The position numbers and the translations under genes are program-made. This document shows, in pieces, positions 2,761 through 21,687 of a DNA stretch of 23,364 nucleotides. The DNA is from a virus: the IMG/VR virus record IMGVR_UViG_3300021091_005544, positions 1 to 23,364 of that record, one strand, 5' to 3'. The notes below the pieces were generated by a model. It worked only from the letters and a program-made list of their open reading frames with translations. It searched no databases and was not told the DNA's origin. Position 1 is the first letter of the stretch. Each line of letters starts with the position of its first letter.

Positions 2761-2765
2761 TTAAA

Positions 2766-2773
2766 TATTTAAT
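2766..2773 (-). promoter_or_regulatory. Late-promoter-like element ATTAAATA before the left-edge gene
   Basis: The minus strand reads ATTAAATA five bases before the ATG at 2760. It overlaps the TAA stop of the 1155-residue gene. TAAATA is exact but the first two bases depart from TATAAATA. Confidence 0.4.
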
Positions 2774-5700
2774 TGTTGTATACTAAGTCGCTAGCACTTA
2801 AAAACAAGCGAAGTCCTTTAGTAAGATCGTAGCTTATCATATTTTGCATAATACCGTTGTCTTTACTCCAGTCTTTAAAAGAGCTATTAGTAAATGAAAG
2901 AGTTGTTAATGGGTTACTCCAATCTATTATATTTTCTTTAAAAGAATTTTCATATTGTGGTATGTAAGTAAAGAAGCTATAATAATCTGAAATTCTATCT
3001 CCAGACAGAGATCTAGGAGCTACTAATCCCCACCCCCAATCATAAGAAAAAGAAGAAAGTGAAACCGGTATACCGAACGGAATATAGCTGTTATTGGATG
3101 ATAATATTTCTACATTGTTTATTAACAAAAAAGTATCTGAAAACTTTTCATACGCTACAATAGGTATTCCTGAAGAAATAGAGCTTGTAAGAGTAGATAG
3201 TTGAGTACCTAAATTTTTATTTGTACTTAGCCCGTAATTTTCAAATTGAAGATTAAATTTATTTCTTTCCCCCCATAACTTTTTATGCTTAATAGACAAT
3301 ATGTTTATTAATCTAGTAAGCTGTGGAGGAAATGGATAATTATATTGCTCAAACTGAACAGATAACTCTTTACATAACGATAAAAGCTGATCTAAGTTAC
3401 TCGTATCTACATCTACATGATTAGAAACATAGTTGGCAATTTTTTCATAAACCGTTTTACCTAATTCGTACGGTTGAGAAGAGATATTTCCTACTATAGT
3501 TCCAAGAAAATTATTGAAGAAAACGTATTTGTCTTCTAAGCTTTCACTTAGAATTAAGGATTTGTAATATGCTTCTGAATCAAAGTCTTCATTAACTTTA
3601 GATATATTATATTCTCCCTCTAGAGGGTAAAGGTTAAAAAGATTAGATTCACCTGTAAGCACTCTTACGGTATTACTACTATCAATATATTTATTTAACC
3701 ATCTGCTTCCTAACCAATCTCCATACGCTTGAAATGACTTTTCTTCAAATGTTGATACGGGGTTTTCTAAACTTGAACCAGGCATTACGAGATCTATGTA
3801 AGGCACCTCTTCAATGGGCTTAGGTGCTTCTGTTGCATCAATAAAATATATTTTTTTATCAAAATTATTAATAGCCCATATAAAGGAAGAAGTATCACAT
3901 GCGATACCTCCAAAGCTTTGAATGTAATTAGTGTTATTAGCAGACCCTGCAATATAATTTGTTTGCGCTCTTGTAGCACCGTCTATTTTTGTAAGGGTGT
4001 GTCTGTCTTGTGCTACCCATGCATTTTGTTGGCCGTCGACAGCAATATTACCAATAAGCTTAAATCCTGATAACGGATATCCGGGTACAATATTACCATC
4101 GGTATCGTATTTGTATAGATAATCATTTCTAGCTGTTAATGCTTTTGCTGAAGTAGTTAAATTATAGGTTGTAAGCCATACAAATCTGTTTCTATCAATA
4201 CATAGTTCTACCGGTGAGTGTAAGGTGGGAAATGTAACTGTTTTAAGAATATTACCATTAGTATCATATTTTACTAAAAAGTTAGATACTGGATGTGTAT
4301 AGGTGATCCAAATATTATTATTAATATCAGCATCTATACTGGCTGGTAAAAGTAAGTTTTCGCCTGCAAATCCTTGTAGCTGAGGCAAATTATAATCGGA
4401 ACTTAAATTATATACTATATTGCTTGTATTTGGATAAGCTATAGCCTTTATAAAGCCAGATGTTCTATCAATTTTGACTGCTGATACTGCATCAAACAAC
4501 GCTATCCACAAATCGCTATTACCATCCATTACGATACTACCCGGAGCTGCACTGCTGAGTATAGGCGATCTTAAATCTGTATAGTAATAAGCCTGGTTAA
4601 TAGCATCGTAACCAGGATAACTAGATAAAGAAAATGCAGATAATATATTTCCATTACTATCAAATTTAAATAAGTTGTCAGTAGTGCCATCAGCAAACCA
4701 GGTTAGATAATCACTGCCAAAAATTGATCCTGAAGGTGCTACTTGAATAGAATAAACATTTCTATTTTCATAGTTATAAAAGAATTTACCGCTTGCAGAA
4801 GTGGTAAAATCTAAATAACCTTTACAATAATCATAAATTTGTAAGTTAAAAAATCTTAACAACACATTGAACTGAGGAACTGCTATCCACCCTATAAGAC
4901 TATCTTTAGGAAAGTTAATTGGGTCTTGTACTACCATTGATGCGGTTAAAGAAACGTTAATAGCGGTTTCTTGTGGGACAAAGTAGCCTTTAAAAAACGC
5001 ACCTATTGATTGAGGTGCATCAGGAGTAAAATCTTCATAAAAATCTACCGCTGTAAAGGGTTCAATGCCGGTTTCAGTATGTTTAATTAATCCAAATTTT
5101 AAATCATAACTAGTTAGTCCTGAGTAAGCTGTGTTTACTGTAGACGAATACAGAGGGGGATAGGTTTTTGTTGTAAAATTTTCGTTATCTTTCATTTTTA
5201 CAACAAAAGGAATTTGCGTATTTTCCCAGCTTATTTTAGGTATATCAAATTTAGTAGAAGAAAGTGTGCCTTCACCGTCAATACCAGTAGTAGAAATTGA
5301 TAAGTTTTGAGCTGGGTTATGACGCACTTTAATAATAGGCAAAACTGCAGGTTTAAGCATTTGAAACCCATAAGGTGGATACTCTAAATATTCATAAGCA
5401 TTATTGTAAAAAGCATATTTGTCTTCAAATTTAGAGCTGTCTAAAGTTGCAAATAAAAAGGTAGGGAATTCCCGAGACGTAAAGTTTTTAGCTCTATCAT
5501 CTACATAGTAAAATGTGCAAGAGCCGGTAGTACCCGCAAAAACGCTATTATTATCTTCTTTGTTACAAATTTGAAGTTCTTTATTTTCATTTATTTTACA
5601 GTATATTTCTGTATTAGAGGTTATTTGTTGTCTAATAGGTCTATACTCCGATTCACTGCCAATTTGTACCTTCTCTACAAACCTGCTTAATGCTCTTAAA

Positions 5701-6236
5701 TGTGACCATTTATCATCAAAAAAATTATCAACGTTTAGATAATCGCCTGCAGCACCTGAGGCATATAAATTAACTGTATATCCGATGCCGCTTAAAGCAT
5801 TATAAGATTGCCAACTAGTTTGTCTGTTAACAGTTAAGGGATCGTTAATTTTACTAGCAGGTACATCATAAATAAATTTTTTATAATCTTCAAATACTAA
5901 CTGATCGTAAATAAAATTATAAATGTTAACTGTAGGCTGATAAGAGCTTTCAAATGAATTACCAAACTTATCATATATAGTAAGTTTTGGACTATAATTG
6001 CCTGGCCACTTATATTGATGGGTTGCTGTTAAATCCGTTGAATATGTACCGTCTCCAAAATCCCACATTACTTTTTTATTAGAAATATTAGATCTCTCAA
6101 TAGGCACAAAAGAGACTACAAAATCAGGAGCAAACGTTAATGGGGTATTAGGTAATGTGTAAGAAGAAAGCTTTTCATTTCCAGTGTAATCGCGTACGCT
6201 GAAGTAAACGTATTTGTAATTTAGCTGATTAGCCAT
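2769..6236 (-). CDS. Large baseplate-wedge-like protein with PKD domain and six-bladed beta-propeller
   Basis: A 1155-residue protein. Residues about 35-100 form a PKD-like immunoglobulin fold, with the signature WDFGDGTYS (58-66) followed by HQYKWPGNYSPKLTIYD (73-89). Residues about 495-801 hold six repeats of the NHL/Vgb-like propeller pattern: an aromatic strand (WFADG 513, LWIAL 576, IWITY 642, VWLTT 687, AWVAQ 739, IWAIN 787) followed by a K-F/Y/I-D-x-N/D-G-N turn. The remaining ~350 residues show no domain I know and include a helical part near 940-1010. No signal peptide is seen. The ATG overlaps the gp6 stop by one base (TAATG), with GGAG six bases before the start. Position directly after gp6 matches T4 gp7, so it may replace gp7 as a wedge protein. 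The PKD and propeller folds commonly bind proteins or glycans, so an adhesive role is possible. Domain calls are fairly firm; function is inferred. Confidence 0.85.
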   Translation of the reverse strand: MANQLNYKYVYFSVRDYTGNEKLSSYTLPNTPLTFAPDFVVSFVPIERSNISNKKVMWDFGDGTYSTDLTATHQYKWPGNYSPKLTIYDKFGNSFESSYQPTVNIYNFIYDQLVFEDYKKFIYDVPASKINDPLTVNRQTSWQSYNALSGIGYTVNLYASGAAGDYLNVDNFFDDKWSHLRALSRFVEKVQIGSESEYRPIRQQITSNTEIYCKINENKELQICNKEDNNSVFAGTTGSCTFYYVDDRAKNFTSREFPTFLFATLDSSKFEDKYAFYNNAYEYLEYPPYGFQMLKPAVLPIIKVRHNPAQNLSISTTGIDGEGTLSSTKFDIPKISWENTQIPFVVKMKDNENFTTKTYPPLYSSTVNTAYSGLTSYDLKFGLIKHTETGIEPFTAVDFYEDFTPDAPQSIGAFFKGYFVPQETAINVSLTASMVVQDPINFPKDSLIGWIAVPQFNVLLRFFNLQIYDYCKGYLDFTTSASGKFFYNYENRNVYSIQVAPSGSIFGSDYLTWFADGTTDNLFKFDSNGNILSAFSLSSYPGYDAINQAYYYTDLRSPILSSAAPGSIVMDGNSDLWIALFDAVSAVKIDRTSGFIKAIAYPNTSNIVYNLSSDYNLPQLQGFAGENLLLPASIDADINNNIWITYTHPVSNFLVKYDTNGNILKTVTFPTLHSPVELCIDRNRFVWLTTYNLTTSAKALTARNDYLYKYDTDGNIVPGYPLSGFKLIGNIAVDGQQNAWVAQDRHTLTKIDGATRAQTNYIAGSANNTNYIQSFGGIACDTSSFIWAINNFDKKIYFIDATEAPKPIEEVPYIDLVMPGSSLENPVSTFEEKSFQAYGDWLGSRWLNKYIDSSNTVRVLTGESNLFNLYPLEGEYNISKVNEDFDSEAYYKSLILSESLEDKYVFFNNFLGTIVGNISSQPYELGKTVYEKIANYVSNHVDVDTSNLDQLLSLCKELSVQFEQYNYPFPPQLTRLINILSIKHKKLWGERNKFNLQFENYGLSTNKNLGTQLSTLTSSISSGIPIVAYEKFSDTFLLINNVEILSSNNSYIPFGIPVSLSSFSYDWGWGLVAPRSLSGDRISDYYSFFTYIPQYENSFKENIIDWSNPLTTLSFTNSSFKDWSKDNGIMQNMISYDLTKGLRLFLSASDLVYNN

Positions 6237-8092
6237 TAAAACTCCGACTGTAATACTTGTATGGAGGGTGTTTCTACTATAATTTTATCAGCAAAATCTA
6301 AAGGATTATTTAAAAAAGGAAATTTAAAATATGGGAGTTGAAGATCTTGGGTTGTAATAGTGATATCATTGAAGGGGTAAACAGGATTATATATCAATAA
6401 ACTAATACCAGGTACTCGAATTGTAGTGTTACCCTGTTTTCGTATTGTATTAATTTCAGTAATACCCTCTAATGCAAATATTTGGTTGGTAATTTCACCG
6501 AAATTAATAAGTTTGCCTAAATTGTCCTCAGAAGTTGAAAAATAAGAAGCAATTATATTTTTTATAGAGTCTTTTAAAGATTCAGGATTGCGTTTAGCGG
6601 TAATTTCTCTAGTAATTTCAAGATATGTAGTGTTGCTTATTTCTGGAGTTAACTCCTCCCCTGGTCTAGCTACTCCTAAATCAACTGCAACATATACTGG
6701 ATCATTAACAATAATTTCTGCAGTTGTTAATTTTACTTGCTGCAAATCATTTAAGAGAAGTTGTTTTTGAGCTGCATTTAAATAGTTTGCTCTTGTAGTG
6801 AGTGAAGTCAGCTTTTCTAGTCTCGGTACCGCATAAATGTATATATTGTTAAAATTGCAAGAATCAGAAAATTTTACTTGATTAAATAAAACTCTACTTT
6901 GCTGATTTGGATTATCAACACCTAAATCGAAATAGTACTTTAAGTGCCCGGAGATGTAATCCCAATTATTAACGGCTTGAGTTGAAGAAATAATATTGCT
7001 GTAATTTTTAGCTATGTAGTTAGTAAAGTCCTCTGATGTAATTAACCTATATTGGCTTCTAAAAGAATTAATAGCATTAGTTTTAATATCACTTACAGTT
7101 TCAATATCTACAAACTTAGTCGAAGCATCTACGTTAGAAAACGATACATTACTCACTTGAGAGCTGTTTATTAAATTTAAATTGTTAGGTATAACATCTG
7201 TTTTAATAGAATTAAATTGAGGTGTATTAAAGAAAAATAATCTATTGTTATCAAGAACACCGGGGCCGACTTCTCCTGTAGTACCGTTCGATTTAATATA
7301 GTAAATAGCTACGTTATCACCTTGACTTAATTTTTTACCAGTTACGTTATTACCAAACTTAATTTCATATCTTTGATTCTCATTTAATCTTATTTCGTAT
7401 TTTTGAGAATTAGATTTTTCTAAAAATAAAGACTGAGTGGGCTCCCATTTGGACCAAACTGGTGTAGATAATGTATTATCTCTTACATAGACATCAATAT
7501 TAAAGTGATCTATAATTGCATTTGCACCGTTAGGATCAGTAACAGTGACAGTTAAGACTTCAAAAGGCTCACCTGTAGATGTATATATTGGATATTCATT
7601 ATAAATTCCTTGATAAAGTAAATTATTTTCTTGTAGATCAGTCAATACTTCAGATGAAGATAAATTTTTTGAAAAAGTTACATCCTTATTAAATGTATAA
7701 TTAATACCATTTACTGTAAAATATGAATATCTTGGTATTGTATAAATATTAATTGGTAGCCCGTCAGAGGCAGTAGCTAAGAAAGATAGTATTGAAGTCT
7801 GATACCCTATAGGATTGTAGCTAATTAATTTTACTATCTTGTTTATATTTTCATAAAGCTCGGCAGTAGTAAAAGTACTCTCAGAGCTCGTTCTATTAAG
7901 GTAAAACATAAGGACATGATAAGAATACGCAATCACATCTATAACGGAAGATATGTTACTGCCTTCAAAGTTTTGATCTGTAAAGTAGTTTTTACTATTT
8001 AACCTAGCATTTATTAAGCTCTTTAGACTTAATGCATCGAACGCTACATAACCTGTAGGTGTTAAATCAAAATTGTTAAATGTTGTTGCCAT
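6236..8092 (-). CDS. 6: Baseplate wedge protein, gp6/baseplate-J-like
   Basis: A 618-residue protein, close to the 660 residues of T4 gp6. The N-terminus (residues 15-120) has the family pattern: a short lead, SLKSLINARLNSKNYFTDQNFEGSN, then a helix (VIDVIAYSYHVLMFYLNRTSSE) and an ENINKIVKLISYNPIGYQTS segment, which I recognise from T4-like gp6 proteins. The middle is beta-rich and the second half holds the baseplate-J-type stretch beginning SEDFTNYIAKNYSNIISS. In T4, gp6 dimers join neighbouring wedges into the ring around the hub and rearrange on sheath contraction. The gene sits between gp25 (its stop is two bases before this ATG) and the 1155-residue wedge-like gene, the usual 25-6-7 order. 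The start has no clear Shine-Dalgarno; coupling to the upstream gene is likely. Confidence 0.9.
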   Translation of the reverse strand: MATTFNNFDLTPTGYVAFDALSLKSLINARLNSKNYFTDQNFEGSNISSVIDVIAYSYHVLMFYLNRTSSESTFTTAELYENINKIVKLISYNPIGYQTSILSFLATASDGLPINIYTIPRYSYFTVNGINYTFNKDVTFSKNLSSSEVLTDLQENNLLYQGIYNEYPIYTSTGEPFEVLTVTVTDPNGANAIIDHFNIDVYVRDNTLSTPVWSKWEPTQSLFLEKSNSQKYEIRLNENQRYEIKFGNNVTGKKLSQGDNVAIYYIKSNGTTGEVGPGVLDNNRLFFFNTPQFNSIKTDVIPNNLNLINSSQVSNVSFSNVDASTKFVDIETVSDIKTNAINSFRSQYRLITSEDFTNYIAKNYSNIISSTQAVNNWDYISGHLKYYFDLGVDNPNQQSRVLFNQVKFSDSCNFNNIYIYAVPRLEKLTSLTTRANYLNAAQKQLLLNDLQQVKLTTAEIIVNDPVYVAVDLGVARPGEELTPEISNTTYLEITREITAKRNPESLKDSIKNIIASYFSTSEDNLGKLINFGEITNQIFALEGITEINTIRKQGNTTIRVPGISLLIYNPVYPFNDITITTQDLQLPYFKFPFLNNPLDFADKIIVETPSIQVLQSEF

Positions 8093-8094
8093 AA

Positions 8095-8577
8095 TTAGTT
8101 ATTAAAAAAGAATCCTGAATTACTTAATGTACCTACCAGTTTAAAACTAGTAGAAGCATTAATACTTACCAGGCCTAAGGTTAGAGTTATATTATATTGT
8201 TGATTTACTTCGTCTACCTCTACGTTTACGTTCTGTACTACTACTCTGGGTTCAAATTTTGATATAGATTGTACTATTTCATTACCAATATTAAGCGCTT
8301 GTACTTCAGTTACTCTATTAAAAAGATATTTCTGTAAATTTACACCAAAATACGGATTTAAAATACGTTGGCCGGGGGTAGTATTAAGTAGATTAAAAAT
8401 TGAATTTCTAATAGCTGCATAATCATAATCAATCTTTATATCCTTAATTTCTTTTCTTTTAAGTAGCTCATTGTTTTTAGTATAATCAAACTCCAAGTCT
8501 AGCTTTAAGTCAGTATAAGTGAACTTACTTTGCGGTTTTTCTTGTTGAGCAACAGATTCTATTTTAATAGTAGCCAC
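8095..8577 (-). CDS. 25: Baseplate wedge protein, gp25-like (GPW/gp25 family)
   Basis: A 160-residue protein slightly longer than T4 gp25 (132). It shows the family core: AIRNSIFNLLNTTPGQRILNP (55-75) then YFGVNLQKYLF, with an acidic-helix region NIGNEIVQSISKFEPRVVVQNVNV (96-119) and a final pair of beta strands. In contractile tails gp25-family proteins form part of the wedge core beside gp6 and template the start of sheath polymerisation. The start is GTG at 8577-8575; an in-frame stop lies 19-21 bases upstream with no ATG between, so GTG is needed. TATAAATA lies exactly five bases before this GTG. The gene is divergent from the plus-strand gene at 8648 and leads into gp6 and the following large genes, so it is probably first in a wedge operon. 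Confidence 0.93.
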   Translation of the reverse strand: MATIKIESVAQQEKPQSKFTYTDLKLDLEFDYTKNNELLKRKEIKDIKIDYDYAAIRNSIFNLLNTTPGQRILNPYFGVNLQKYLFNRVTEVQALNIGNEIVQSISKFEPRVVVQNVNVEVDEVNQQYNITLTLGLVSINASTSFKLVGTLSNSGFFFNN

Positions 8578-8582
8578 GTTAT

Positions 8583-8590
8583 TATTTATA
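8583..8590 (-). promoter_or_regulatory. T4-late-like promoter element TATAAATA before gp25
   Basis: The minus strand reads TATAAATA, identical to the T4 late promoter consensus, five bases before the GTG of gp25. A purine run (AAAAGGG) lies directly upstream. If it works as in T4, transcription would start at about the first base of the start codon. Function is inferred. Confidence 0.65.
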
Positions 8591-8633
8591 CCCTTTTAAT
8601 TCTTTTAAAATCAGTTTTATTAATAGTAGGAAG

Positions 8634-8641
8634 AATAAATA
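8634..8641 (+). promoter_or_regulatory. T4-late-like promoter element AATAAATA before the 202-residue gene
   Basis: AATAAATA lies six bases before the plus-strand ATG at 8648, preceded by AGGAAG. Together with the minus-strand element at 8583-8590 it makes a divergent pair in the 70-base gap 8578-8647. AGGAAG is 14 bases from the ATG, too far for a usual ribosome binding site. Confidence 0.55.
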
Positions 8642-8647
8642 ATTTAA

Positions 8648-9256
8648 ATGAAACGTAATTTTGTCGAGTTATTTGAATCTGCAATGCAAAGGTATACCCT
8701 TGGCGGGCTTCTGGCCGGAGATGTAGTTGTTTTTAGAGAAGGTGCATTTAGTGATCCTTGGTATAAAGGCTTAGGAGAAAACACTAAAGAAAAGATTCAG
8801 TCCATGGTAAATAGTGGATTAAACTTGAGAGTAACTAACATTAAAAACGTATTACCAGCTGTACAAGGTGCTGGTAACACAGATTATACCGGTACAGACT
8901 TTAATGTGGATATAACGTCTGAAATAGCTCCTGGAAGATATATGGATTTTGTTACTGTTCCTGGTAGGATGATTCAACCTAAAAGCTCTTATCCTAATCT
9001 GCCGGAAGTTCCTGAAGTGTTTAAAAAAGATGATCCTGCTAGAAAAGCTTTTATAAAGCCTAAGAAAGTAAAAGATGAAGCTGAAGAGGTACCTTTTATA
9101 ACACCAAAAGATACTAAGTTGTCTGATTTAGGTAATAAGAAGCTCTCTAAAGGTGATCGCGAATTATTAAACACTAATGTTAAGATACCTTCGAGTCCTG
9201 TACAAGGTCAGTCAGATCCCGCTTCTTACACTTACAAATATCTACCTAAGAGATAA
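8648..9256 (+). CDS. Conserved-looking phage protein of unknown function (202 residues)
   Basis: A plus-strand gene within a mostly minus-strand region. The N-terminal half (residues 15-105) looks like a small beta-rich domain: GGLLAGDVVVFREGAF, a short helix ENTKEKIQSMVNSG, then LNLRVTNIKNVLPAVQG and a further strand set ending ITSEIAPGRYMDFVTVPG. I have an impression of similar proteins in T4-like marine phages but cannot name a family. The C-terminal ~85 residues are rich in Lys, Pro, Asp and Ser with little predicted structure. There is no signal peptide or membrane segment. The stop overlaps the end of the clamp-loader gene by 11 bases in convergent orientation. It starts from a probable late promoter shared back to back with gp25, so it is likely made late and could be structural; that is inference. 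Confidence 0.8.
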   Translation: MKRNFVELFESAMQRYTLGGLLAGDVVVFREGAFSDPWYKGLGENTKEKIQSMVNSGLNLRVTNIKNVLPAVQGAGNTDYTGTDFNVDITSEIAPGRYMDFVTVPGRMIQPKSSYPNLPEVPEVFKKDDPARKAFIKPKKVKDEAEEVPFITPKDTKLSDLGNKKLSKGDRELLNTNVKIPSSPVQGQSDPASYTYKYLPKR

Positions 9257-10178
9257 CTTCTGACATCGCTATAAAGCAAGTATAGCAATTAATTTCTTGA
9301 TCAATACAAAAACTACTACGGTAAATATGTTCTGCTAAAAGCAGTAAATATTTTTTCTTGATGTTAATTACTATGTCTTGATTGTCTATAAAATTAAATA
9401 AATTTCTCATTAACGCCACGTAATCGCTATTAAACTGTTGTTCATTTTCAATTAATGCTTTTCTTAAAGTAGTAATGTTTTTAGATTTTATTTGATCGTA
9501 AATAAGCTTTAAAACATCATCGTTAAAATCATCAGAAAGCTTTAATGTACCGTTAGCAGAGGACTTTTGAAGTTCATTAATACATTTACGTAAGTCAGGA
9601 TAAAAAGATTTTATAAATTCCATTAACTTCTGTTTTTCTTCTACAGGTATATTAACTTTTTCAGCTTTAAGAATATAAACGCATCTCTTCACAACACCGT
9701 CCAAAGAGGGTGTTAAATCAAAACCTTGACATCTACTCTGTAAAGCTGTTATAACTTTATGTTTATAGTTAGCAGTGAGGATAAATCTTGTTATTTTAGC
9801 AAATTCTTCTATAGTATTTCTTAAGGCGCGTTGTGCATCTATAGATAGCCCATCAGTCTCGTCTAAAATAATGACTTTAATTTTACCGTCAATGCTCTTT
9901 GTTTGCGCAAAACTAGTAACTTTAGTACGGATAGTATCGATACCGTTTTCATCGCTAGCGTTAATATACAAGTATTGACATTCTAATACTTCATTTACGA
10001 GAATCTTTGCTAAAGTAGTTTTACCAATACCGGGTGTACCGATAAAAAGTAAATTAGGTATTTCTTTTTGCTTTTTATATGATTCAATAATAGCTTTATT
10101 TTTTTCAGATATAGTAAAATCTAAAAGCTGCTTGGGTCTATACTTTTCTACCCATAAATTACTAAAATCAAGATTCAT
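9246..10178 (-). CDS. 44: Sliding-clamp loader ATPase, gp44/RFC-small-subunit-like
   Basis: A 310-residue AAA+ protein, close to the 319 residues of T4 gp44. It opens with the clamp-loader signature LWVEKYRPKQLLDF (8-21), then Walker A GTPGIGKTT (47-55), Walker B VIILDETDG (102-110), a sensor 1 region (FILTANYKHK, Asn at 137) and the arginine-finger SRC motif (148-150). The C-terminal ~130 residues fit the helical collar. In T4, four gp44 subunits with one gp62 load the gp45 clamp onto primed DNA for the replicative polymerase. No gp62, gp45 or polymerase gene is in this window. Its ATG overlaps the dUTPase stop by one base (TAATG), so the two are translationally coupled. Its end overlaps the convergent 202-residue gene. 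The odd point is its position inside a tail-gene region. Confidence 0.93.
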   Translation of the reverse strand: MNLDFSNLWVEKYRPKQLLDFTISEKNKAIIESYKKQKEIPNLLFIGTPGIGKTTLAKILVNEVLECQYLYINASDENGIDTIRTKVTSFAQTKSIDGKIKVIILDETDGLSIDAQRALRNTIEEFAKITRFILTANYKHKVITALQSRCQGFDLTPSLDGVVKRCVYILKAEKVNIPVEEKQKLMEFIKSFYPDLRKCINELQKSSANGTLKLSDDFNDDVLKLIYDQIKSKNITTLRKALIENEQQFNSDYVALMRNLFNFIDNQDIVINIKKKYLLLLAEHIYRSSFCIDQEINCYTCFIAMSEVIS

Positions 10179-10645
10179 TATTTACCGGAAGAGCCAAATC
10201 CTTTTTCACCTCTATCACTAGTCTCTACTTTACCCCATTCTATAGGCATAGAAAAATTAAGATACACTACAAACTGCGCTATTCTATCTCCTATTTTGAT
10301 ATCATAATCTTTATCAGATAGATTATATAGTTTTACCCCAGCGTCACCCCTATATCCACAGTCTATTACACCTGGATGTGCTAGAATACCATGCTTAAAT
10401 CCCATTCCGCTCCTAGATTCTACCTTTACCCAATAACCTTCGGGTATTAAAGCAAATCTTAACCCCACACCCACAACGTTTGATCCTTTAGCCGGTATAA
10501 TCTTGTCTTCTATTGAATAGACATCATATCCTGTATCGGATTCATGGTTTTTAGTAGGTAATTTAGCCAAATCGTGTGTTTTTTCGAATTTTAATACAGG
10601 TAAAAACTGTAAATTCGGATCTAGATCTTTAGATATATTATACAT
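10178..10645 (-). CDS. dut: dUTP diphosphatase (trimeric dUTPase)
   Basis: A 155-residue protein with all five trimeric dUTPase motifs in order: motif 1 SDTGYDVYS (36-44), motif 2 SRSGMGFKHG (78-87), motif 3 GVIDCGYRGDAGVKLYN (92-108; catalytic Asp in VIDCGYRG), motif 4 IGDRIAQFVV (118-127) and the glycine-rich motif 5 RGEKGFGSSGK (145-155). It hydrolyses dUTP to dUMP and pyrophosphate, keeping uracil out of phage DNA and feeding dTMP synthesis. T4 itself uses an unrelated dimeric-type enzyme (gp56), so the trimeric type is a difference from T4. The gene is first in a two-gene unit with the clamp loader. Upstream is a TATAAT box rather than the late-type motif, fitting early expression. Confidence 0.97.
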   Translation of the reverse strand: MYNISKDLDPNLQFLPVLKFEKTHDLAKLPTKNHESDTGYDVYSIEDKIIPAKGSNVVGVGLRFALIPEGYWVKVESRSGMGFKHGILAHPGVIDCGYRGDAGVKLYNLSDKDYDIKIGDRIAQFVVYLNFSMPIEWGKVETSDRGEKGFGSSGK

Positions 10646-10650
10646 ACCTT

Positions 10651-10677
10651 ATTATAATATAAGTTTAATAAAATCAA
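10651..10677 (-). promoter_or_regulatory. Possible sigma70-type promoter for dUTPase-clamp loader
   Basis: The minus strand carries TTGATT (10677-10672), a 15-base spacer and TATAAT (10656-10651), five bases before the dUTPase ATG. The spacer is shorter than the usual 17. AAGG between the box and the ATG is too close to be an ordinary Shine-Dalgarno. It differs from the late-type elements nearby, in line with early or middle expression. Confidence 0.4.
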
Positions 10678-10682
10678 TACTT

Positions 10683-10690
10683 AATAAATA
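10683..10690 (+). promoter_or_regulatory. T4-late-like promoter element AATAAATA before the 154-residue gene
   Basis: AATAAATA lies exactly five bases before the plus-strand ATG at 10696, in the 50-base gap shared with the divergent dUTPase gene. No Shine-Dalgarno is seen between it and the ATG. Function is inferred from the recurrence of this arrangement elsewhere in the window. Confidence 0.6.
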
Positions 10691-10695
10691 ATATT

Positions 10696-13203: not shown

Positions 13204-13204
13204 A

Positions 13205-14761: not shown

Positions 14762-14764
14762 ATA

Positions 14765-15136: not shown

Positions 15137-15137
15137 G

Positions 15138-16445
15138 TTATCTTCCTAGAGACTGGTTAATAATTAATTGTTCCCGGGCCTGTATAACAGATTCTGCTGC
15201 GGTTTGATCAGAAACACTAGTAGTTACTATGGGAGTATTATTTAAAATTGAATACATAAAGTTTTTAGAGTCGGCAATTAAGCTTTTTAAAGTTATTTTA
15301 ATTACGTAAGCATCAGGAATAATAGTAGTTATTTTCTTACGTATAGGTTGATTAAAAAACCCTATAGTTTCAGTTACTTTATTGTTTAGGAAATTTCTTA
15401 TTAACCCCCCTACTGCATTTCCTACTCCTCCTTGAAATGTCGGTAATGCAGATTCTATATTTAAATTATCTATGTAAGAAAGATCAAAAGTTAATTCTCT
15501 TCTCGATCCTTGAAACTCTATTGCTATACTAGATATGTAACAGAAAGGTAAAAATTTTACCCCGGGTATTTCAACTTGATAGATATTAGGAGGGTCGATT
15601 AAAGCGGTGTTTCGTCTAGCAGGTTTGTTGTTATAGAGTAGAAGAAATAATAATTCCCAGTTTCTTATTACGTCATCAAATGATACAGAACCTGTATTAA
15701 TTAGAGGAAGAGTAAATGAAAGCTCTTCTCCATCTGTATTGTAGCTATAAAATTTAGATTTTTCTACAAAACTTATAGCAGCAGGTCCTCTTAGTATAGC
15801 AGCTGTACTAGCCAGGTCGGTTAATCCATCTGCTGCTTTTTTTAAAATGCCTAAAAACGGATTAGGAGCATCATCAGAAAACGCATTTGATTGCATACCA
15901 GAAAAATTTTCAAAATAAGGCATTATAAATTGCCATCCAGTTGGTTCTGTAATGTAGAGGTTTCTGTAAGGTCTTAAATACGGGTTTTTATCATATATAT
16001 CATTATTGTCTTGAAGAAAATCAAATTTATTTGTAAATTCTGCGGTCTTCTGACCTATACCTGTACTTTCTTCAATAGTTTTAAAAAAATCATTTATATC
16101 ATTTTTTACATCATCTGGTAGTTTATTAATAGCAGCGGTAACTGTTTCTTTAGTCGCTCCGAATGAATATTTTAACTGTGAAATTAAAGCATTAGCCTTT
16201 AATCTTCTTTCAGTAAGAATAATTTTAGGTACCTCTTGTCTGGCTTGAGCTAATTTTGAATAGGTCCAGTAAAAATCAGAAACAACGTCTACTGTAGTAC
16301 CTGTCTGTGCGTAATTTGACGAAGCAATACCTGTTCCTGATTGAGATACATTTGGAGCTACAAGCAACGGAGGATTAACCTCAGCATCACTTAAATTAGA
16401 TGAATCAATTGTTCTGCCTCTAGATATTGAAAATACATGATTCAT
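15138..16445 (-). CDS. Probable baseplate-tail tube protein (gp48/gp54-like)
   Basis: A 435-residue protein. Residues 1-60 are Ser/Asn-rich and probably flexible; residues 60-150 are helical. From about 240 a beta-rich part begins: ELSFTLPLINTGSVSFDD, ALIDPPNIYQVEIPGVKFLP, YISSIAIEFQGSRRELTFDL and, near 375, TIIPDAYVIKITLKSLIADS. The combination of a proline-led PPNIYQVEIPG strand and an IPDAYVIKITLKSL strand resembles the tube-like domain in T4-type gp48 and gp54 proteins, which cap the baseplate and start tube assembly. Its position between the tape measure and the hub/wedge genes fits. An AATAAGTA element, one base off the late motif, sits five bases before the ATG. I am sure it is a gene, only moderately sure of the role. 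Confidence 0.7.
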   Translation of the reverse strand: MNHVFSISRGRTIDSSNLSDAEVNPPLLVAPNVSQSGTGIASSNYAQTGTTVDVVSDFYWTYSKLAQARQEVPKIILTERRLKANALISQLKYSFGATKETVTAAINKLPDDVKNDINDFFKTIEESTGIGQKTAEFTNKFDFLQDNNDIYDKNPYLRPYRNLYITEPTGWQFIMPYFENFSGMQSNAFSDDAPNPFLGILKKAADGLTDLASTAAILRGPAAISFVEKSKFYSYNTDGEELSFTLPLINTGSVSFDDVIRNWELLFLLLYNNKPARRNTALIDPPNIYQVEIPGVKFLPFCYISSIAIEFQGSRRELTFDLSYIDNLNIESALPTFQGGVGNAVGGLIRNFLNNKVTETIGFFNQPIRKKITTIIPDAYVIKITLKSLIADSKNFMYSILNNTPIVTTSVSDQTAAESVIQAREQLIINQSLGR

Positions 16446-16450
16446 AATAA

Positions 16451-16458
16451 TACTTATT
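16451..16458 (-). promoter_or_regulatory. Late-promoter-like element AATAAGTA (one mismatch)
   Basis: The minus strand reads AATAAGTA, then five bases, then the ATG of the 435-residue gene. It differs from AATAAATA at one base but keeps the same distance as the exact copies. It overlaps the stop of the tape-measure gene. Confidence 0.35.
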
Positions 16459-18502
16459 AATAGTTTACAGCTAAGAGACCTCTTCTAAAATCTAAGTTAG
16501 ATTGTGATTTTTGAGTTAAAACCATTTGACTAGAACTGTTATTTACTACTACATTACTACTCGATTGCTCTTTATCTCTAATTTCTTTTAAAGTGCCTAA
16601 ACTTGTATCAGTAAGCTTAGCTTGTTGCTGTTGTACTTTTATAGAATTGTCTAATCTATCTCTAATTTCATTTAGAGAGGTATTTAATTCAAGTATACTG
16701 TCGTTAAGTGTAGTTGTTGATGTATATAAACTATCAAAAACTGCATCTTTGTCAGACATTATTTCTAAAGGTGGTGTTTTTTTAGCTGCAACCTGTACTT
16801 GCTGGGTAGGTATTTCTACCTTCTTTAAATCATTTACATATTTTAAATTACCTAGTTTTTCTAATCCTTTTACATTAGTTATCTGTTCAAGCCCTTTACT
16901 TACAATATTCATCTGATCAATAAATCCTTCACCATACTTTTCTTGCGTAAATGTAGCTATAGCAGTCGACAGCACATTAACATTATCAGCGGCAATCTTT
17001 AATTTTTCACTTTTATCAGCGAATGCAATTATTGATTCTAGAGGCGTTTTACCGTTTACTAGTCTAGTTAAAAATGTACTAGCAGCTGAAGCAACGTTAC
17101 CCCCTGCTTGTGCAACACCGAATGTTGCAACAGCTAAACCTAAAGCAGTTACCGCACCTGCTACTCTAAAAATATGACCGGGATCTTGAGTAATAAGCCA
17201 TTTAAAAGTATCGCTAAATTTAGTAAATACCTTTTCTATTGTGTTTAGAGCCTTAGTGGCTATATCTCTTACAAAATCTATAAGAGTTTTAAATGAATTA
17301 AAAAATTGATCTACAAACGACCTAACGGTTTTAACGGCATCAAGAAGCGTTTCGCCAATTAATGTTGCTAAAGGCTTAATGCTACTAAAAACCGAATCTA
17401 CTATTTTTCTAAAATTTTCGAACGCTGAAACTAAAATTGTTTTAACGTAGGGTGCAATAGTTGTTATCCCATCTATTACTCTTGCTAAAATATCTTTAAG
17501 AGGGGGTATTAATGCTAATAAAATATCTTTTACAGCAGATAAAGTTGGTAAAAAAACATCTTTAAAGGTATTTAAAATTGTGGGAATTTTATCTATTAAG
17601 GAAAGCCCTATTTCCTTTACGTACCCCGCTATTTGCGTTATGTAAGGCATAATTGGCGGTAAATTAGATAAAATGACTTCAGTTAGCTTAGAAATTCCTC
17701 CAAAAAATGAATTTACTATAGTAGGAATATTTGCAACAATATACATAAAAAATTCTTTAATATCTTTTATAATGGGTAATAAAATATCTCCAATAGACTT
17801 TAATACGGGAGGGATATGAGAAAGAATAGTATCTGCTAGTTTAACAATATTTTCTACTACTGTTTGTATAAGCGGTAGAATAACTGTAGACATAGCTTTA
17901 CCTGCGCTTTCGATAGCAGGTGGTAGTACTTTAACTAGAAAATCACCAACTGCAGGCAATGCGTCTTTCATAAATGCAGCAATTTTATCAAGATTTTTAA
18001 GCAATAAAAATATTACAGCTACTCCGCCTACTGCTGCAATAGCTGCTATTAAAACACCCCATATTCCTGCACCTCCTACTAGACCGCCTAAGAAATTACC
18101 AGCTGCTCCTGCCATACCACCGCCTTTTTTACCTCCCCCGGTTGTTTGCATAGCTAATGAACCTGCAACACTCTCTGAAAATACTCTTTTAAGGTTTCTT
18201 AAAACATCTCTAGATACAAATTCTATTCTAACCTTAATTCCATTTTTTTGAAACACTTTTTGATTTTCATCATATAATTCTTTTTGCTTTTTGTTTAGTT
18301 TGTCAAAATTTTTTTCAAATTCTTTTGAGTAGATTTTAGCTATTTCTTTTTGTCTTTCTTTTTCTCTAGGTTGAAGACGGTCTACTTTATTTTTATCTTT
18401 ATTTTTATCTTCTGCTTCAGGCATCTCGTTGTATATAGCATCTAAACGTGAACTAATTTTAGTTAGTTGATCTAGAAATAGCTGAAATTGCTGAGGATCC
18501 AT
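16457..18502 (-). CDS. Tail tape-measure protein
   Basis: A 681-residue protein (T4 gp29 is 590). Order of parts: charged coiled-coil N-terminus (1-110, rich in Lys/Glu/Gln), a Gly-rich stretch (GGGKKGGGMAGAAG, 122-135), a strongly hydrophobic segment at about 145-168 (IWGVLIAAIAAVGGVAVIFLLL), long amphipathic helices with regular proline breaks (185-360), a second hydrophobic part (about 455-490) and a coiled-coil C-terminus with Gln/Ser-rich end. This build is typical of tape measures, which fill the tube lumen, set its length and contact the membrane at DNA delivery. At about 1.5 angstroms per residue, helical packing of 681 residues would suggest a tail near 100 nm; this is only a rule-of-thumb estimate. 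The two gp26/gp51-like genes lie just upstream, as chaperone genes often do. Confidence 0.88.
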   Translation of the reverse strand: MDPQQFQLFLDQLTKISSRLDAIYNEMPEAEDKNKDKNKVDRLQPREKERQKEIAKIYSKEFEKNFDKLNKKQKELYDENQKVFQKNGIKVRIEFVSRDVLRNLKRVFSESVAGSLAMQTTGGGKKGGGMAGAAGNFLGGLVGGAGIWGVLIAAIAAVGGVAVIFLLLKNLDKIAAFMKDALPAVGDFLVKVLPPAIESAGKAMSTVILPLIQTVVENIVKLADTILSHIPPVLKSIGDILLPIIKDIKEFFMYIVANIPTIVNSFFGGISKLTEVILSNLPPIMPYITQIAGYVKEIGLSLIDKIPTILNTFKDVFLPTLSAVKDILLALIPPLKDILARVIDGITTIAPYVKTILVSAFENFRKIVDSVFSSIKPLATLIGETLLDAVKTVRSFVDQFFNSFKTLIDFVRDIATKALNTIEKVFTKFSDTFKWLITQDPGHIFRVAGAVTALGLAVATFGVAQAGGNVASAASTFLTRLVNGKTPLESIIAFADKSEKLKIAADNVNVLSTAIATFTQEKYGEGFIDQMNIVSKGLEQITNVKGLEKLGNLKYVNDLKKVEIPTQQVQVAAKKTPPLEIMSDKDAVFDSLYTSTTTLNDSILELNTSLNEIRDRLDNSIKVQQQQAKLTDTSLGTLKEIRDKEQSSSNVVVNNSSSQMVLTQKSQSNLDFRRGLLAVNY

Positions 18503-18512
18503 AAGCTATTAA

Positions 18513-18520
18513 TACTTATG
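18513..18520 (-). promoter_or_regulatory. Weak late-promoter-like element CATAAGTA before the tape measure
   Basis: The minus strand has CATAAGTA ten bases before the tape-measure ATG in the 38-base gap 18503-18540. It shares ATAAGTA with the element at 16451-16458, but both base identity and spacing depart from the main pattern. Confidence 0.2.
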
Positions 18521-18540
18521 AACAAACTACTTAAATTGCG

Positions 18541-19314
18541 CTATTCTTTTGTAAAAAATGCAGTGTCTAAATTTAAAGTAACTTCTTTATCACCAACAAA
18601 TACTTTAAGAGGCTCGCTTTCTACTTTTCTAATCTTAGCAATACTCTCAATTAATTTAGTGGTTACTGCCATCGGTAAGCTTTCTACAGTTTCAACCTTT
18701 TGATTAATAGAAAGAACATTAAACTTTATTTCATCAATCTTACTATCAACAGTAATTTTAATACTATCAATAAATTTAATAATTTCATAGACATAAACCT
18801 CACCAATTAAATCTTTAACTTTTTCAGAGTCTGCGCTTTTACGAGTTTCTAAAACTTTTTTACATTCTAAATTAATTCTATAATCTTCTTCTAATGAAGG
18901 TACTTTGGTAACAATTTCCAAGTTATCAAAAGTAAGGGTTTCAGAAAGACTTGCTACGTTTACAGGATCTTTTTTACTTAGAGAGTTATTTAAATCTATA
19001 TTAAGCTTTTCTTCTCCATCTGAAATATAGTTAGAACCTAAAGAATTAGTCCTTAATGCAAGCAATATTAAGGGCTTATCTAAAATAGATAGATTACTTT
19101 TAGATTGTAAATTTTCTTTAATTATTTCCGATGTAGCAAGAGAGAATGTAATAGGAGAAAGAATAACATCTAATGCTGTTTTAATAATGCTTTTTTGCTG
19201 TCTTATGGTTAGAGGAACTAGCGCGACTTCAGAATTTAAAGACCGGGCAAAGACATTAACCTTATTAGAAATAGCTATCTGTTTTATTTTGTCTAAAACT
19301 GAATTACTGCTCAC
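18541..19314 (-). CDS. gp26/gp51-like baseplate or tail-assembly protein (second of a tandem pair)
   Basis: A 257-residue soluble protein. Residues 28-80 show the pattern of the T4 gp26/gp51 group (T4_baseplate family): VALVPLTIRQQKSIIKTALD, a Thr/Ser-rich break, a helix ending IIKENL, then LDKPLILLALRTNSLG, where the -LLALR-x-x-S-x-G core is the best clue. The rest is mixed, with a helical middle and a C-terminal VGDKEVTLNLDTAFF. In T4, gp26 and gp51 are needed for central hub assembly. In long-tailed phages generally, genes in this spot encode tape-measure chaperones. The start is GTG at 19314-19312, fixed by an in-frame TAA directly upstream. TATAAATT lies five bases before the GTG. Family placement is from memory of the pattern and should be treated as probable only. 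Confidence 0.7.
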   Translation of the reverse strand: MSSNSVLDKIKQIAISNKVNVFARSLNSEVALVPLTIRQQKSIIKTALDVILSPITFSLATSEIIKENLQSKSNLSILDKPLILLALRTNSLGSNYISDGEEKLNIDLNNSLSKKDPVNVASLSETLTFDNLEIVTKVPSLEEDYRINLECKKVLETRKSADSEKVKDLIGEVYVYEIIKFIDSIKITVDSKIDEIKFNVLSINQKVETVESLPMAVTTKLIESIAKIRKVESEPLKVFVGDKEVTLNLDTAFFTKE

Positions 19315-19319
19315 TTAAT

Positions 19320-19327
19320 AATTTATA
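19320..19327 (-). promoter_or_regulatory. Late-promoter-like element TATAAATT (one mismatch)
   Basis: The minus strand reads TATAAATT, five bases before the GTG of the 257-residue gene, in a 19-base gap. It differs from the T4 late consensus only in the last base and holds the five-base distance. Confidence 0.4.
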
Positions 19328-19333
19328 CGGGGA

Positions 19334-20191
19334 CTATAGTTTTCCAGGGTTAATAGGTATATTAGGTGTTTTTGACTTCTTACTTTGTTCTTCTTGTCTC
19401 TTTATTTCATCCTCAAATAGTCTAATTACCAATAAGTTCTCTGCAAACGTATTGTTGTCTAAGTATTCTGGTGTGTAGTGCAATTTACTTACTAAGATAT
19501 ACTGCATTTCGTAAATATTTGACAAATTAGCTCTAAAAACTAATTTTAAAAGCTCTAATAAAGTACCGTCATATGGATTTAAAACTAACGCCTCATCTAA
19601 TGTTGGTATTTTAAATTCTAAATTTTTAAAACTTTCAACTACTTCATCAAAAAACGTTTTTATTTCAAAAATAACGTTACCGGGTAATGATTCAATTATT
19701 TCATTTTTTAAATTTATTTCAATATCATCAAAATTGTAAGTAGAGTCGTCGATTTTTACACTTTTAATCATTAAATGAGGTAATTCTAAAAAATTCTCAA
19801 TAATAAAATTATTAGGAAGACCGAATATAACTTCTAAATTTTGGTGAGTAATGGTTTTATTAAATATTTGCTTAAAATTTAAACAACTATTTAAAAAATC
19901 AGTAACAGATATCTTTACATTCTGCTTTTTTTGAAACATCTCTAATTCAGGGGAAATACTTACACTTCTAAGCAAAAGTAAACAACAAAATTTATCAAAA
20001 TTAGAAAGTTTGTAATAAAAATTTTTATTCTCTAAATTTTCAAATAAAATATTATTAAAATAATACTCAATAAATTCGTTTTTATCGGATAGGATGTATT
20101 TGTTAAGGTCTTTAAATTGCTTAAAAGACAATTCTTTTATTTTAAGCGATGTTTTTAAAGTAGGTGGCTCAAAATTTAAATAAAATGACAT
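19334..20191 (-). CDS. gp26/gp51-like protein or tail-assembly chaperone (first of a tandem pair)
   Basis: A 285-residue, Phe/Asn/Leu-rich helical protein. Its N-terminal half repeats the layout of the following gene: ELSFKQFKDLNKYILSD (25-41), a helix with FNNILFENL, then FDKFCCLLLLRSVSIS (64-79), lining up with LDKPLILLALRTNSLG of the neighbour. The C-terminal part has IYEMQYILVSKLHYTPEYLD and a Lys/Glu-rich tail ending PINPGKL. The ATG overlaps the stop of the 302-residue tube-associated gene by one base (TAATG). Sitting between tube and tape measure, it occupies the classic tail-chaperone place. Either a hub assembly protein or a tape-measure chaperone would fit; I cannot decide between them. 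Confidence 0.65.
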   Translation of the reverse strand: MSFYLNFEPPTLKTSLKIKELSFKQFKDLNKYILSDKNEFIEYYFNNILFENLENKNFYYKLSNFDKFCCLLLLRSVSISPELEMFQKKQNVKISVTDFLNSCLNFKQIFNKTITHQNLEVIFGLPNNFIIENFLELPHLMIKSVKIDDSTYNFDDIEINLKNEIIESLPGNVIFEIKTFFDEVVESFKNLEFKIPTLDEALVLNPYDGTLLELLKLVFRANLSNIYEMQYILVSKLHYTPEYLDNNTFAENLLVIRLFEDEIKRQEEQSKKSKTPNIPINPGKL

Positions 20192-21099
20192 TATAAGAAC
20201 CCTAAAGGATTTATATTCCCAAGTCCGTTTTGGAAGCTTGTAATTCTAGGAATAGATCCATTAGATATTCTATTAACTATGTCAGCAATAGGCAAGTAAA
20301 GATTGTTTTCTAATGTATAATTAGAATACGTCCACCTTGTGCTGTAAGTGGTTAGCTTTTCATCTGAATAATCTAGTGATTGTTCAGATATTTGAAATGG
20401 CATACAATTAAAAAAGTTAAATACTTTTCTAGGTATCATGGAAATACCTTGGTAGGTTCTGGTATATTCAAGTAAAGTCATATTAACTTTCATATTTCTT
20501 GGGTCTTTATTACCTTGCACATCACCGGGGCGAGCTGCCATACCGAAATGTGATCCTAAAATAACCCAAGGTCTAAGAACAAAATCAACAAATGAAGTGT
20601 TTGTTTCTCTAAACTCAATTACCATTTCCGGTGCTTCAGATAATCTCGGTCCCCCTAGTACCCCGGGTAAGAACCCTCTATTATTATTAATTGAAGCTGT
20701 ACTTACAGCAAATTGTTCTGTGGGTATGGTAATTGCATGTGCAAACAAACACCCTACTATCTTTTGTAAGGGAAAACTATTTAAAATTGCCCGGGCCGTA
20801 TCTATATCAAATCCCTTTTTACTACCATCGGTTCTTTCCAACCCTTGAATGACACTACTTCTTAATGCGGGGGGGTAATTATCTATGACTATAATCCATT
20901 GGGTGGTATTAGGAATCGAGGTAAACCATGATTCCATTTGAACCAAGAAATAATCTCTCGGTGAAATAATTGGTACCCCGGGTATATTAAAACCAAAGAG
21001 ATTTATTGCTTGGGGAGCAAAAGAGGCATTTGTTCCTCTACCTAAATCTGCGAAATTTTGACCGAGTGAATTTAAAGCACTGGTAAACGGGTTGTTCAC
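20191..21099 (-). CDS. Tail-tube-associated or baseplate-tube junction protein (gp54/gp48-like)
   Basis: A 302-residue protein next to the tail tube gene. After a Ser/Asn/Gly-rich N-terminus and GFNIPGVPIISPRDYFLVQM (36-55), the body is beta-rich. Its last ~90 residues read like the tube-fold strands: NMKVNMTLLEYTRTYQGISM, then VFNFFNCMPFQISEQSLDYS and LTTYSTRWTYSNYTL. The phrase of Cys-Met-Pro, a Ser-x-x-x-Leu-Asp-Tyr turn and a terminal T-Y-S strand is shared with many myovirus tube and tube-initiator proteins. T4 gp54 (320 residues) has similar size and begins tube polymerisation. The start is GTG, and TCTAAATA lies five bases before it. A tail terminator or second tube protein is the alternative. 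Confidence 0.7.
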   Translation of the reverse strand: MNNPFTSALNSLGQNFADLGRGTNASFAPQAINLFGFNIPGVPIISPRDYFLVQMESWFTSIPNTTQWIIVIDNYPPALRSSVIQGLERTDGSKKGFDIDTARAILNSFPLQKIVGCLFAHAITIPTEQFAVSTASINNNRGFLPGVLGGPRLSEAPEMVIEFRETNTSFVDFVLRPWVILGSHFGMAARPGDVQGNKDPRNMKVNMTLLEYTRTYQGISMIPRKVFNFFNCMPFQISEQSLDYSDEKLTTYSTRWTYSNYTLENNLYLPIADIVNRISNGSIPRITSFQNGLGNINPLGFL

Positions 21100-21104
21100 C
21101 TAAT

Positions 21105-21112
21105 TATTTAGA
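21105..21112 (-). promoter_or_regulatory. T4-late-like promoter element TCTAAATA before the 302-residue gene
   Basis: The minus strand reads TCTAAATA five bases before the GTG, within the 26-base gap after the tail tube stop. It contains CTAAATA, a variant I recall being proposed for late promoters of T4-like cyanophages. No Shine-Dalgarno lies closer to the start. Confidence 0.55.
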
Positions 21113-21125
21113 TCTAAACTACTAA

Positions 21126-21674
21126 TTAGCTAAGCTTTCTCCAATAATGATAGGAGACAGTAGCAGTAAATTCAATTGTCTCACCGGTACCGGTGGCAAT
21201 ATTATACTGAAGAGGGCCGACATTTCTAACAGAAACACCAACTAGTTGATATTGACCAACGCTGTTTAATTCATTATCTAGCTGAACTAAGTCGATAATA
21301 GCGGTTTGCTTAGGAGAAAAATAATTTCCAGTGGAATTTGCATCATTAAAAATGTCTGTTGACCACTGTTCAAATTTCTGACGGATTTGAGACTGCGCAT
21401 CAGCATAAAATGTCAATTCGTAACCATCACTATTAGGATATGTAGCATTACCGGGTAAGTTAAAGTTTAATCCCATGTATGGAACAGGAACATTAGTAAT
21501 AGAGCGGGCAGGTAAGGTAGCTGTCTTTACATAAACTAGATCGTTTTCATCAAATGTTACGGTGCTTGCACCACCAGTATTAATAGAAAGTACACGAAAA
21601 TTAAAGTCACGTGCAAATTCGCGGGTTGTCGCTACCCTGTAAAAGTCTGTAATTAATTGATTTACGTCTGCCAT
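21126..21674 (-). CDS. 19: Tail tube protein, gp19-like
   Basis: A 182-residue protein, near the 163 residues of T4 gp19. It has the tube layout: N-terminal helix (LITDFYRVATTREFARDFNF, 7-26), a long loop region (NDLVYVKTATLPARSITNVPV, 44-64), NLPGNATYPNSDGYELTFYAD (71-91), a helix (SQIRQKFEQWSTDIF) and closing strands (QLVGVSVRNVGPLQYN, TIEFTATVSYHYWRK). Hexameric rings of this protein stack into the inner tube through which DNA passes. It is directly after the sheath gene (25-base gap), as in T4 (18-19). Its start has AATAAATA five bases upstream. G+C content looks higher than in the baseplate genes, as expected for a very highly expressed gene. Confidence 0.9.
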   Translation of the reverse strand: MADVNQLITDFYRVATTREFARDFNFRVLSINTGGASTVTFDENDLVYVKTATLPARSITNVPVPYMGLNFNLPGNATYPNSDGYELTFYADAQSQIRQKFEQWSTDIFNDANSTGNYFSPKQTAIIDLVQLDNELNSVGQYQLVGVSVRNVGPLQYNIATGTGETIEFTATVSYHYWRKLS

Positions 21675-21679
21675 AAAAT

Positions 21680-21687
21680 TATTTATT
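21680..21687 (-). promoter_or_regulatory. T4-late-like promoter element AATAAATA before the tail tube gene
   Basis: The minus strand reads AATAAATA five bases before the tube ATG, in the 25-base gap between sheath and tube. GAAGGG lies upstream, 14 bases from the ATG. A separate start for the tube would fit its need for many copies. Confidence 0.55.

Follow-up and report, generated by a model that had tools for sequence, protein, structure and literature searches.

Candidate T4-type late promoters abutting start codons suggest leaderless late mRNAs in a lineage of uncultured T4-like phages

Introduction

Late transcription in phage T4 is a textbook system. The T4 late box occupies positions -13 to -6, transcription starts about one helical turn downstream, and there is no -35 site (PMC2988020). 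Most middle and late mRNAs of Thermus phage phiYS40 are leaderless (PMC3594737), and in Deinococcus-Thermus the -10 element often adjoins the open reading frame, with leaderless mRNA experimentally demonstrated (PMC12340547). In pelagimyophages, late-promoter prediction was reported to be unsuccessful (PMC7029224). The literature that we searched, with most subscription journals lying outside it, yielded no T4-like phage whose late promoters are joined directly to start codons. To our knowledge no such phage has been described.

We analysed a 23,364-base phage fragment from IMG/VR with a GC content of ~31%, here called the window. Comparing its sequence with those of its relatives, our best reading is that it belongs to a monophyletic, widespread lineage of uncultured T4-like phages in which both early and late promoters would lie directly against start codons and the majority of primary mRNAs would be leaderless.

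Results

Gene content

The window has 17 complete start codons. Its T4-type tail genes are gp18, gp19, gp25, gp6, a gp53-like gene and a tape-measure candidate, and amid them lie a dUTPase-gp44 pair and two plus-strand genes. The genes used below, with their PHROG matches, are these.

6236-8092, minus strand: gp6-like baseplate wedge gene (phrog_219, 1.1e-40)
8095-8577, minus strand: gp25-like baseplate wedge gene (phrog_261, 1.5e-24; phrog_43, 1.6e-17)
9246-10178, minus strand: gp44 clamp loader gene, replication class (phrog_168, 4.8e-77)
10178-10645, minus strand: dUTPase gene, early class (phrog_135, 2.8e-44)
20191-21099, minus strand: g21099, conserved tail-region protein with a GTG start (conserved in relatives)
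21126-21674, minus strand: gp19-like tail tube gene (phrog_45, 1.7e-20)
21700-23364, minus strand: gp18 tail sheath gene, its start past the contig end (phrog_23, 2.2e-68)

The PHROG search gave no match for g21099, to which no family was assigned. Relatives of the window carry further T4-like genes, namely gp17, gp20, gp21, gp23, gp43, gp41, uvsX and gp46/47. By the T4-type tail, baseplate and replication genes recognized in the sequences of window and relatives, the phage is T4-like.

Late boxes in the window

An earlier note on this DNA had reported the hexamer TAAATA ending exactly 5 bases upstream of 5 of the 17 starts (2760, 8577, 10696, 21099 and 21674), a spacing we term gap 5, along with a sixth copy 6 bases before the start at 8648 and one-mismatch forms at gap 5 before the starts at 16445 (TAAGTA) and 19314 (TAAATT). 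We recovered every one of these at the same coordinates, and likewise the full TATAAATA that the note had described before gp25. The candidate late boxes, identified from sequence, are these.

2766-2773, minus strand: ATTAAATA, 5 bases before the g2760 ATG
8583-8590, minus strand: TATAAATA, a perfect T4-type late box, 5 bases before the gp25 GTG (start 8577)
8634-8641, plus strand: AATAAATA, 6 bases before the g8648 ATG
10683-10690, plus strand: AATAAATA, 5 bases before the g10696 ATG
16451-16456, minus strand: TAAGTA, a one-mismatch box, 5 bases before the g16445 ATG
19320-19327, minus strand: TATAAATT, a one-mismatch box, 5 bases before the g19314 GTG
21105-21112, minus strand: TCTAAATA, 5 bases before the g21099 GTG (TAAATAATTAG GTG)
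21680-21687, minus strand: AATAAATA, 5 bases before the gp19 tail tube ATG

The match to TATAAATA is perfect before gp25 and has one or two mismatches elsewhere. The candidate promoters of gp25 and g8648 stand back to back in the divergent gap 8578-8647. Five of 17 starts with the hexamer at one fixed place has a P of ~2e-11, taking a TAAATA frequency of 0.0013 per position per strand, which bears out the claim that base composition alone is not responsible. As a word TAAATA shows no excess in the window (61 occurrences versus 77.5 expected), so what is special is where the hexamer stands, not how often it occurs. Before g2760 the TAA of the box also serves the upstream gene as its stop codon, an explanation that does not extend to the other five boxes. 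None of the six TAAATA-bearing starts has a Shine-Dalgarno sequence at normal distance, as had been stated.

The box is mostly missing where a gene abuts the stop before it, both in the window and in relatives (22/254 with a box, versus 75/194 at strand switches). The gp6-like gene, directly after gp25, lacks a box; gp44, whose start overlaps the dUTPase stop, has none at gap 4-8.

Conservation and placing in relatives

A search of IMG/VR with gp19 found 411 relatives, and relatives come from both lakes and the sea. Upstream sequences were compared for 80 of the 411; in those listed, TAAATA stands 5 to 7 bases before the start, most often as TAAATAATTTT ATG. Nearly all of 64 g21099 homologues have TAAATAATTAG GTG or a near match to it, with the same box and gap. 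In both sets the stretch between the upstream stop and the box varies widely in sequence and length. Counterparts of g16445 have TAAGTA or TAAATA near the same place in most of 28 relatives, and gp25 homologues of the clade have the box at gap 5-7 in 6/7. Summed over 20 longer relatives, ATAAATANNNNNRTG had 260 matches, against 28 for the reversed control.

For a genome-wide test we combined the window with seven long relatives (60-162 kb), giving 8 contigs and 826 starts. The gene caller was simple, based on codon usage and blind to upstream sequence, and it misplaces some starts. TAAATA preceded 133 starts at gap 5, 58 at gap 6 and 23 at gap 7, with 0-11 at other gaps. At gap 5 it was the commonest of all hexamers at any position, about 90 times a background of ~1.5; the enrichment anchored at start codons thus extends beyond the window. 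A count independent of gene calling (TAAATA, a given gap, and an ATG or GTG that begins a frame of 80 codons or more) gave 9-33 gap-5 instances per relative across all seven, and few at other gaps. Only 27 of the 214 boxes in this wider set reuse the upstream stop codon. In the controls T4, P-SSM2, S-PM2, single-cell phage AG-345-L05 and Pseudoalteromonas phage XG4, the box lies mainly ~19-33 bases upstream.

More distant contigs were reached through gp23 (70-80% identity), which has at least about 600 matches in IMG/VR. Three of them (G050, G052 and G054) have the same promoter placing, while in a fourth (G053) it is looser, with boxes over gaps 5-10. In a tree of gp17 the lineage of the window forms one clade (100/100) on a long stem.

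Candidate early promoters and the predicted transcription start

The early genes have TTGA-N17-TATAAT upstream, the -10 element peaking six bases before the start. A -35 was counted as TTGACA-like at 4 or more of 6 matches; on that count early-type genes have one at spacer 16-18 in 39/69, against 6, 8 and 15 of 69 at control spacers. In the window the element belongs to the dUTPase.

10651-10656, minus strand: TATAAT, probable sigma70 -10 element, 5 bases before the dUTPase ATG (from sequence)

Its TTGATT partner, at 10672-10677, is imperfect, with a spacer of 15; in a relative (G013), TTGATT and TATAAT at gap 6 precede a gene that shares the dUTPase start motif. The late baseplate cluster encloses the early-class dUTPase-gp44 unit (9246-10645), which has a TATAAT box to itself and is flanked by the two plus-strand genes bearing late boxes.

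Given the T4 box at -13 to -6, gap 5 would put +1 on the start codon, assuming the start position of T4. A sigma70 -10 element at gap 6 sets +1 on the start codon. The two promoter classes would therefore obey the same rule by different distances. On sequence evidence, the case that the late promoters are placed for leaderless mRNA is strong; the case that the early promoters are too rests on somewhat weaker evidence.

Start codon identity was also examined. TTG starts number 0/303 among promoter-type genes and 10/523 among others, all starts beside promoters being ATG or GTG; absence of TTG is what a purine at +1 would require. GTG is commoner at gap 5 (41/133) than at gaps 6-7 (4/81; P = 2e-6), in counts that include many orthologues; by family the figures are 18/58 and 4/46.

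The alternative that survives best is that these are late promoters whose start slips or lies slightly upstream, so that the mRNAs would carry a short leader, roughly 1-8 bases long. Indeed, gaps 6 and 7 are frequent (58 and 23, versus 133), promoters of HTVC008M-like gp25 genes stand at gaps 5, 6 and 8, and the looser contig spreads over a range. We nonetheless think it unlikely, as gap 5 is a sharp mode at the exact T4 late +1 and the sigma70 boxes peak at their own equivalent, gap 6.

Late boxes follow gene class

With genes assigned to classes through their similarity to proteins of T4 and HTVC008M, the box occurs at 35/77 structural genes versus 1/67 replication and nucleotide genes (Fisher, 6e-11). 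Counted by gene family the figures are 10/15 and 1/13 (P = 0.002). The phoH gene has the box in 6/6. It is missing from gp4, gp6 and gp14, as expected of downstream operon genes. Many genes are flanked by neither promoter type, partly because the simple caller misplaced their starts. Late boxes have no conserved -35 partner: TTGACA-like sequences at spacer 16-18 precede 37/214 late-type genes, compared with 21-32/214 at control spacers. Positions -20 to -1 in lineage contigs have no peak of G, hence no visible Shine-Dalgarno signal; T4 and HTVC008M have such a peak.

These counts bear on a second alternative, in which TAAATA is an A/T-rich translation-initiation signal for a host that does without Shine-Dalgarno sequences, and promoters lie elsewhere. 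Such a signal would suit a box that abuts start codons, a lineage lacking Shine-Dalgarno signals, and phages that in most cases encode a bS21-like ribosomal protein (see below). But a general translation signal should not depend on gene class, and the single box among 67 replication and nucleotide genes of the same phages, together with the scarcity at abutting genes relative to strand switches, argues against one. The sequence is moreover that of the T4 late box, and what early genes bear at the corresponding distance is another box, one paired with a -35. We regard this explanation as very improbable.

A third explanation attributes the pattern to chance, to base composition or to stop codons (a TAA with an A/T-rich gap after it). 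It can appeal to the low GC content and the one window box that overlaps a TAA stop, but is next to impossible given the P value in the window, the ~90-fold peak at one position over 826 starts, the few boxes that reuse a stop, the spacing kept though upstream spacers differ, the lack of the pattern in the A/T-rich T4-like phages P-SSM2, XG4 and AG-345-L05, and the enrichment at gap 5 in further contigs.

Of the two readings that the earlier note had offered, T4-type late promoters giving leaderless mRNA is well supported by the sequences, through class specificity, the missing -35, the exact distance and a gp55-type sigma. A translation-start signal is disfavoured; replication genes lack the box and bear sigma70 -35 and -10 elements at the matching distance. 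The note had overlooked that early genes are arranged likewise, that the major capsid gene is exceptional, and that the arrangement is lineage-wide.

Late transcription apparatus

The late sigma and coactivator genes that the earlier note had looked to were sought in 15 long relatives, and one of the two was found. Matches to gp55 (phrog_234) occur in 11/15, with e-values of ~1e-26 to 1e-29, and also in G050 and G051; the window itself, being a fragment, contains none. The gp33 coactivator (phrog_254) was found in 0/15, in a search for a short family that gave no control match either. The gp45 clamp is weakly matched, in three contigs at 1e-5 to 1e-7, with phrog_223 in 1/15. Undetected gp33 and weakly recognized gp45 suggest that the late apparatus has diverged.

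Stop-codon recoding was considered because coding density is low in G018 and the gp55 match of two contigs contains a TGA. It is not supported, as homologous alignments contain almost no in-frame stops.

Exceptions

The major capsid gene, gp23, has no adjoining box but a conserved leader of roughly 90 nt, in which a small hairpin (TGAGG...CCTGAA) is followed by an invariant GGTCGACA ~25 bases before the ATG. The leader was seen in 37/62 distinct upstream sequences (for example L262:1411-1503, L284:172-264 and L273:1411-1503). Pair changes in the hairpin concentrate on one pair. Rfam gave nothing at gathering level in the window, and near gp23 only weak matches below the cut-off, none of them at the leader.

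Before gp17 the box or its TAAGTA variant lies 9-11 bases away. Terminase frames of 922-927 aa (G011, L043) and 733-736 aa (L006, L007) were noted, versus ~570 in relatives; the long frames possibly contain an intein or other insert.

Host and translation factors

A bS21-like ribosomal protein of ~70 aa is encoded in 10/15 contigs (for example G005:84906-85037 and G017:82041-82163). No phage-encoded IF3 was found in lineage contigs. We mention as a speculation, itself doubtful, that nearly the whole genome is expressed through leaderless mRNAs, that the bS21-like protein joins the 30S subunits of the host and promotes initiation on leaderless messages without a Shine-Dalgarno sequence, and that the capsid mRNA alone, with its structured leader, follows a different translation rule.

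Several leads to the host were followed. Early promoters of the TTGA/TATAAT kind are unlike Bacteroidota promoters. A Bacteroidota host, suggested by the view that lake phages with bS21 infect Bacteroidetes (PMC9723584), therefore fits poorly. Alignment of gp19 against 84,980 genomes found no relative and thus no host lead. A sugar epimerase in G013 has best matches of only 42-44% (Pelagibacteraceae, Actinomycetota), not decisive for host. With a crude pattern, TATAAT-N6-ATG was not enriched in SAR11 genomes. In Babelota (TM6; G028 and relatives) it exceeded the reversed control in many genomes (23 versus 3, 32 versus 8), which suggests that leaderless transcripts are frequent there; as an indication of host it is only a hint.

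A tRNA with anticodon CAT is conserved in 6/7 long relatives (G018, G017, G013, G005, G001 and G011). An initiator type was considered and rejected, since the anticodon loop, judged by eye, resembles tRNA-Ile2 instead; the tRNA is probably of that type. At L098:3285-5254 (contig G013), two neighbouring proteins match LCIB_C_CA, which is limiting-CO2-inducible and carbonic-anhydrase-like.

Discussion

Weighing these patterns, we consider it likely that T4-type late promoters are fused to start codons in this lineage and yield leaderless late mRNAs, and that early promoters follow the same rule. TAAATA would be the core of a T4-type late box (TATAAATA, -13 to -6), used as a promoter by host RNA polymerase carrying the phage gp55-type sigma. 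Each late promoter would have moved against its gene until +1 fell on the start codon's first base (gap 5) or one or two bases ahead of that codon (gaps 6 and 7). Late mRNAs would then have their 5' ends exactly at AUG or GUG and be translated leaderless, without a Shine-Dalgarno sequence, in a host that presumably tolerates or prefers such messages. Early and replication genes would use host sigma70 promoters (TTGA-N17-TATAAT), the -10 mostly six bases before the start. Downstream operon genes, which overlap or abut their neighbours, are probably translated by coupling or re-initiation.

If this is true, one element sets both the transcription and the translation start across a large lineage, and spacing predicts gene starts exactly. 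It would also point to hosts that mostly initiate on leaderless mRNAs. Late promoters placed in this way would escape a promoter search built on ordinary leaders.

Comparison with known systems

Thermus phage phiYS40 offers a likeness as a lytic phage with mostly leaderless middle and late mRNAs; it is a Thermus phage, whereas the late promoter of the present lineage is T4-type and would need a gp55 sigma. Deinococcus-Thermus, with a TANNNT -10 a few bases before the open reading frame, shares the logic of the lineage's early promoters. That system concerns cellular genes of one phylum and was established by experiment; ours concerns a phage lineage with two promoter classes, known from sequence alone.

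T4 late promoters (TATAAATA, with gp55, gp33 and gp45; PMC2988020) have the same 8-base box, also lack a -35 and likewise stand before structural genes. In T4 the box lies ~23-29 bases before the start with a Shine-Dalgarno sequence between; in the lineage the distance is 5-7 bases and there is none. The lineage encodes a homologue of gp55, while gp33 was not found and gp45 has diverged. Cyanophage late promoters (NATAAATA; S-PM2, P-SSM2; PMC2984593) again have the same box upstream of late genes, but ~19-30 bases away, unlike the lineage.

In Mosig and Melnitz the box is mostly at ordinary distance, and short gaps are few (gap 5 before Mosig gp3, gap 8 before gp25). The gp17 tree places HTVC008M beside these two and apart from the window's clade, on long branches that leave the deep placing unsure. 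Pelagibacter phage HTVC008M itself has the box at gap 5 before some of its late genes (NC_020484: 13944-16007, 18392-18916, 19456-20607, 31132-31575 and 75830-76432), and ATAAATAGTnnn ATG at gap 5 precedes its tape measure, gp2, gp48, gp25 and gp3 genes; gap 5 was counted at 8 called starts and 12 open frames. Among its marine relatives the gp25 box stands at gap 5 (36), 6 (20) or 8 (16), in 72/80 contigs. The difference from the window's lineage is that only a subset of late genes is so arranged, with gp18, gp19, gp20 and gp23 keeping Shine-Dalgarno leaders. HTVC008M is an isolate on a cultured host, and in it the arrangement is directly testable.
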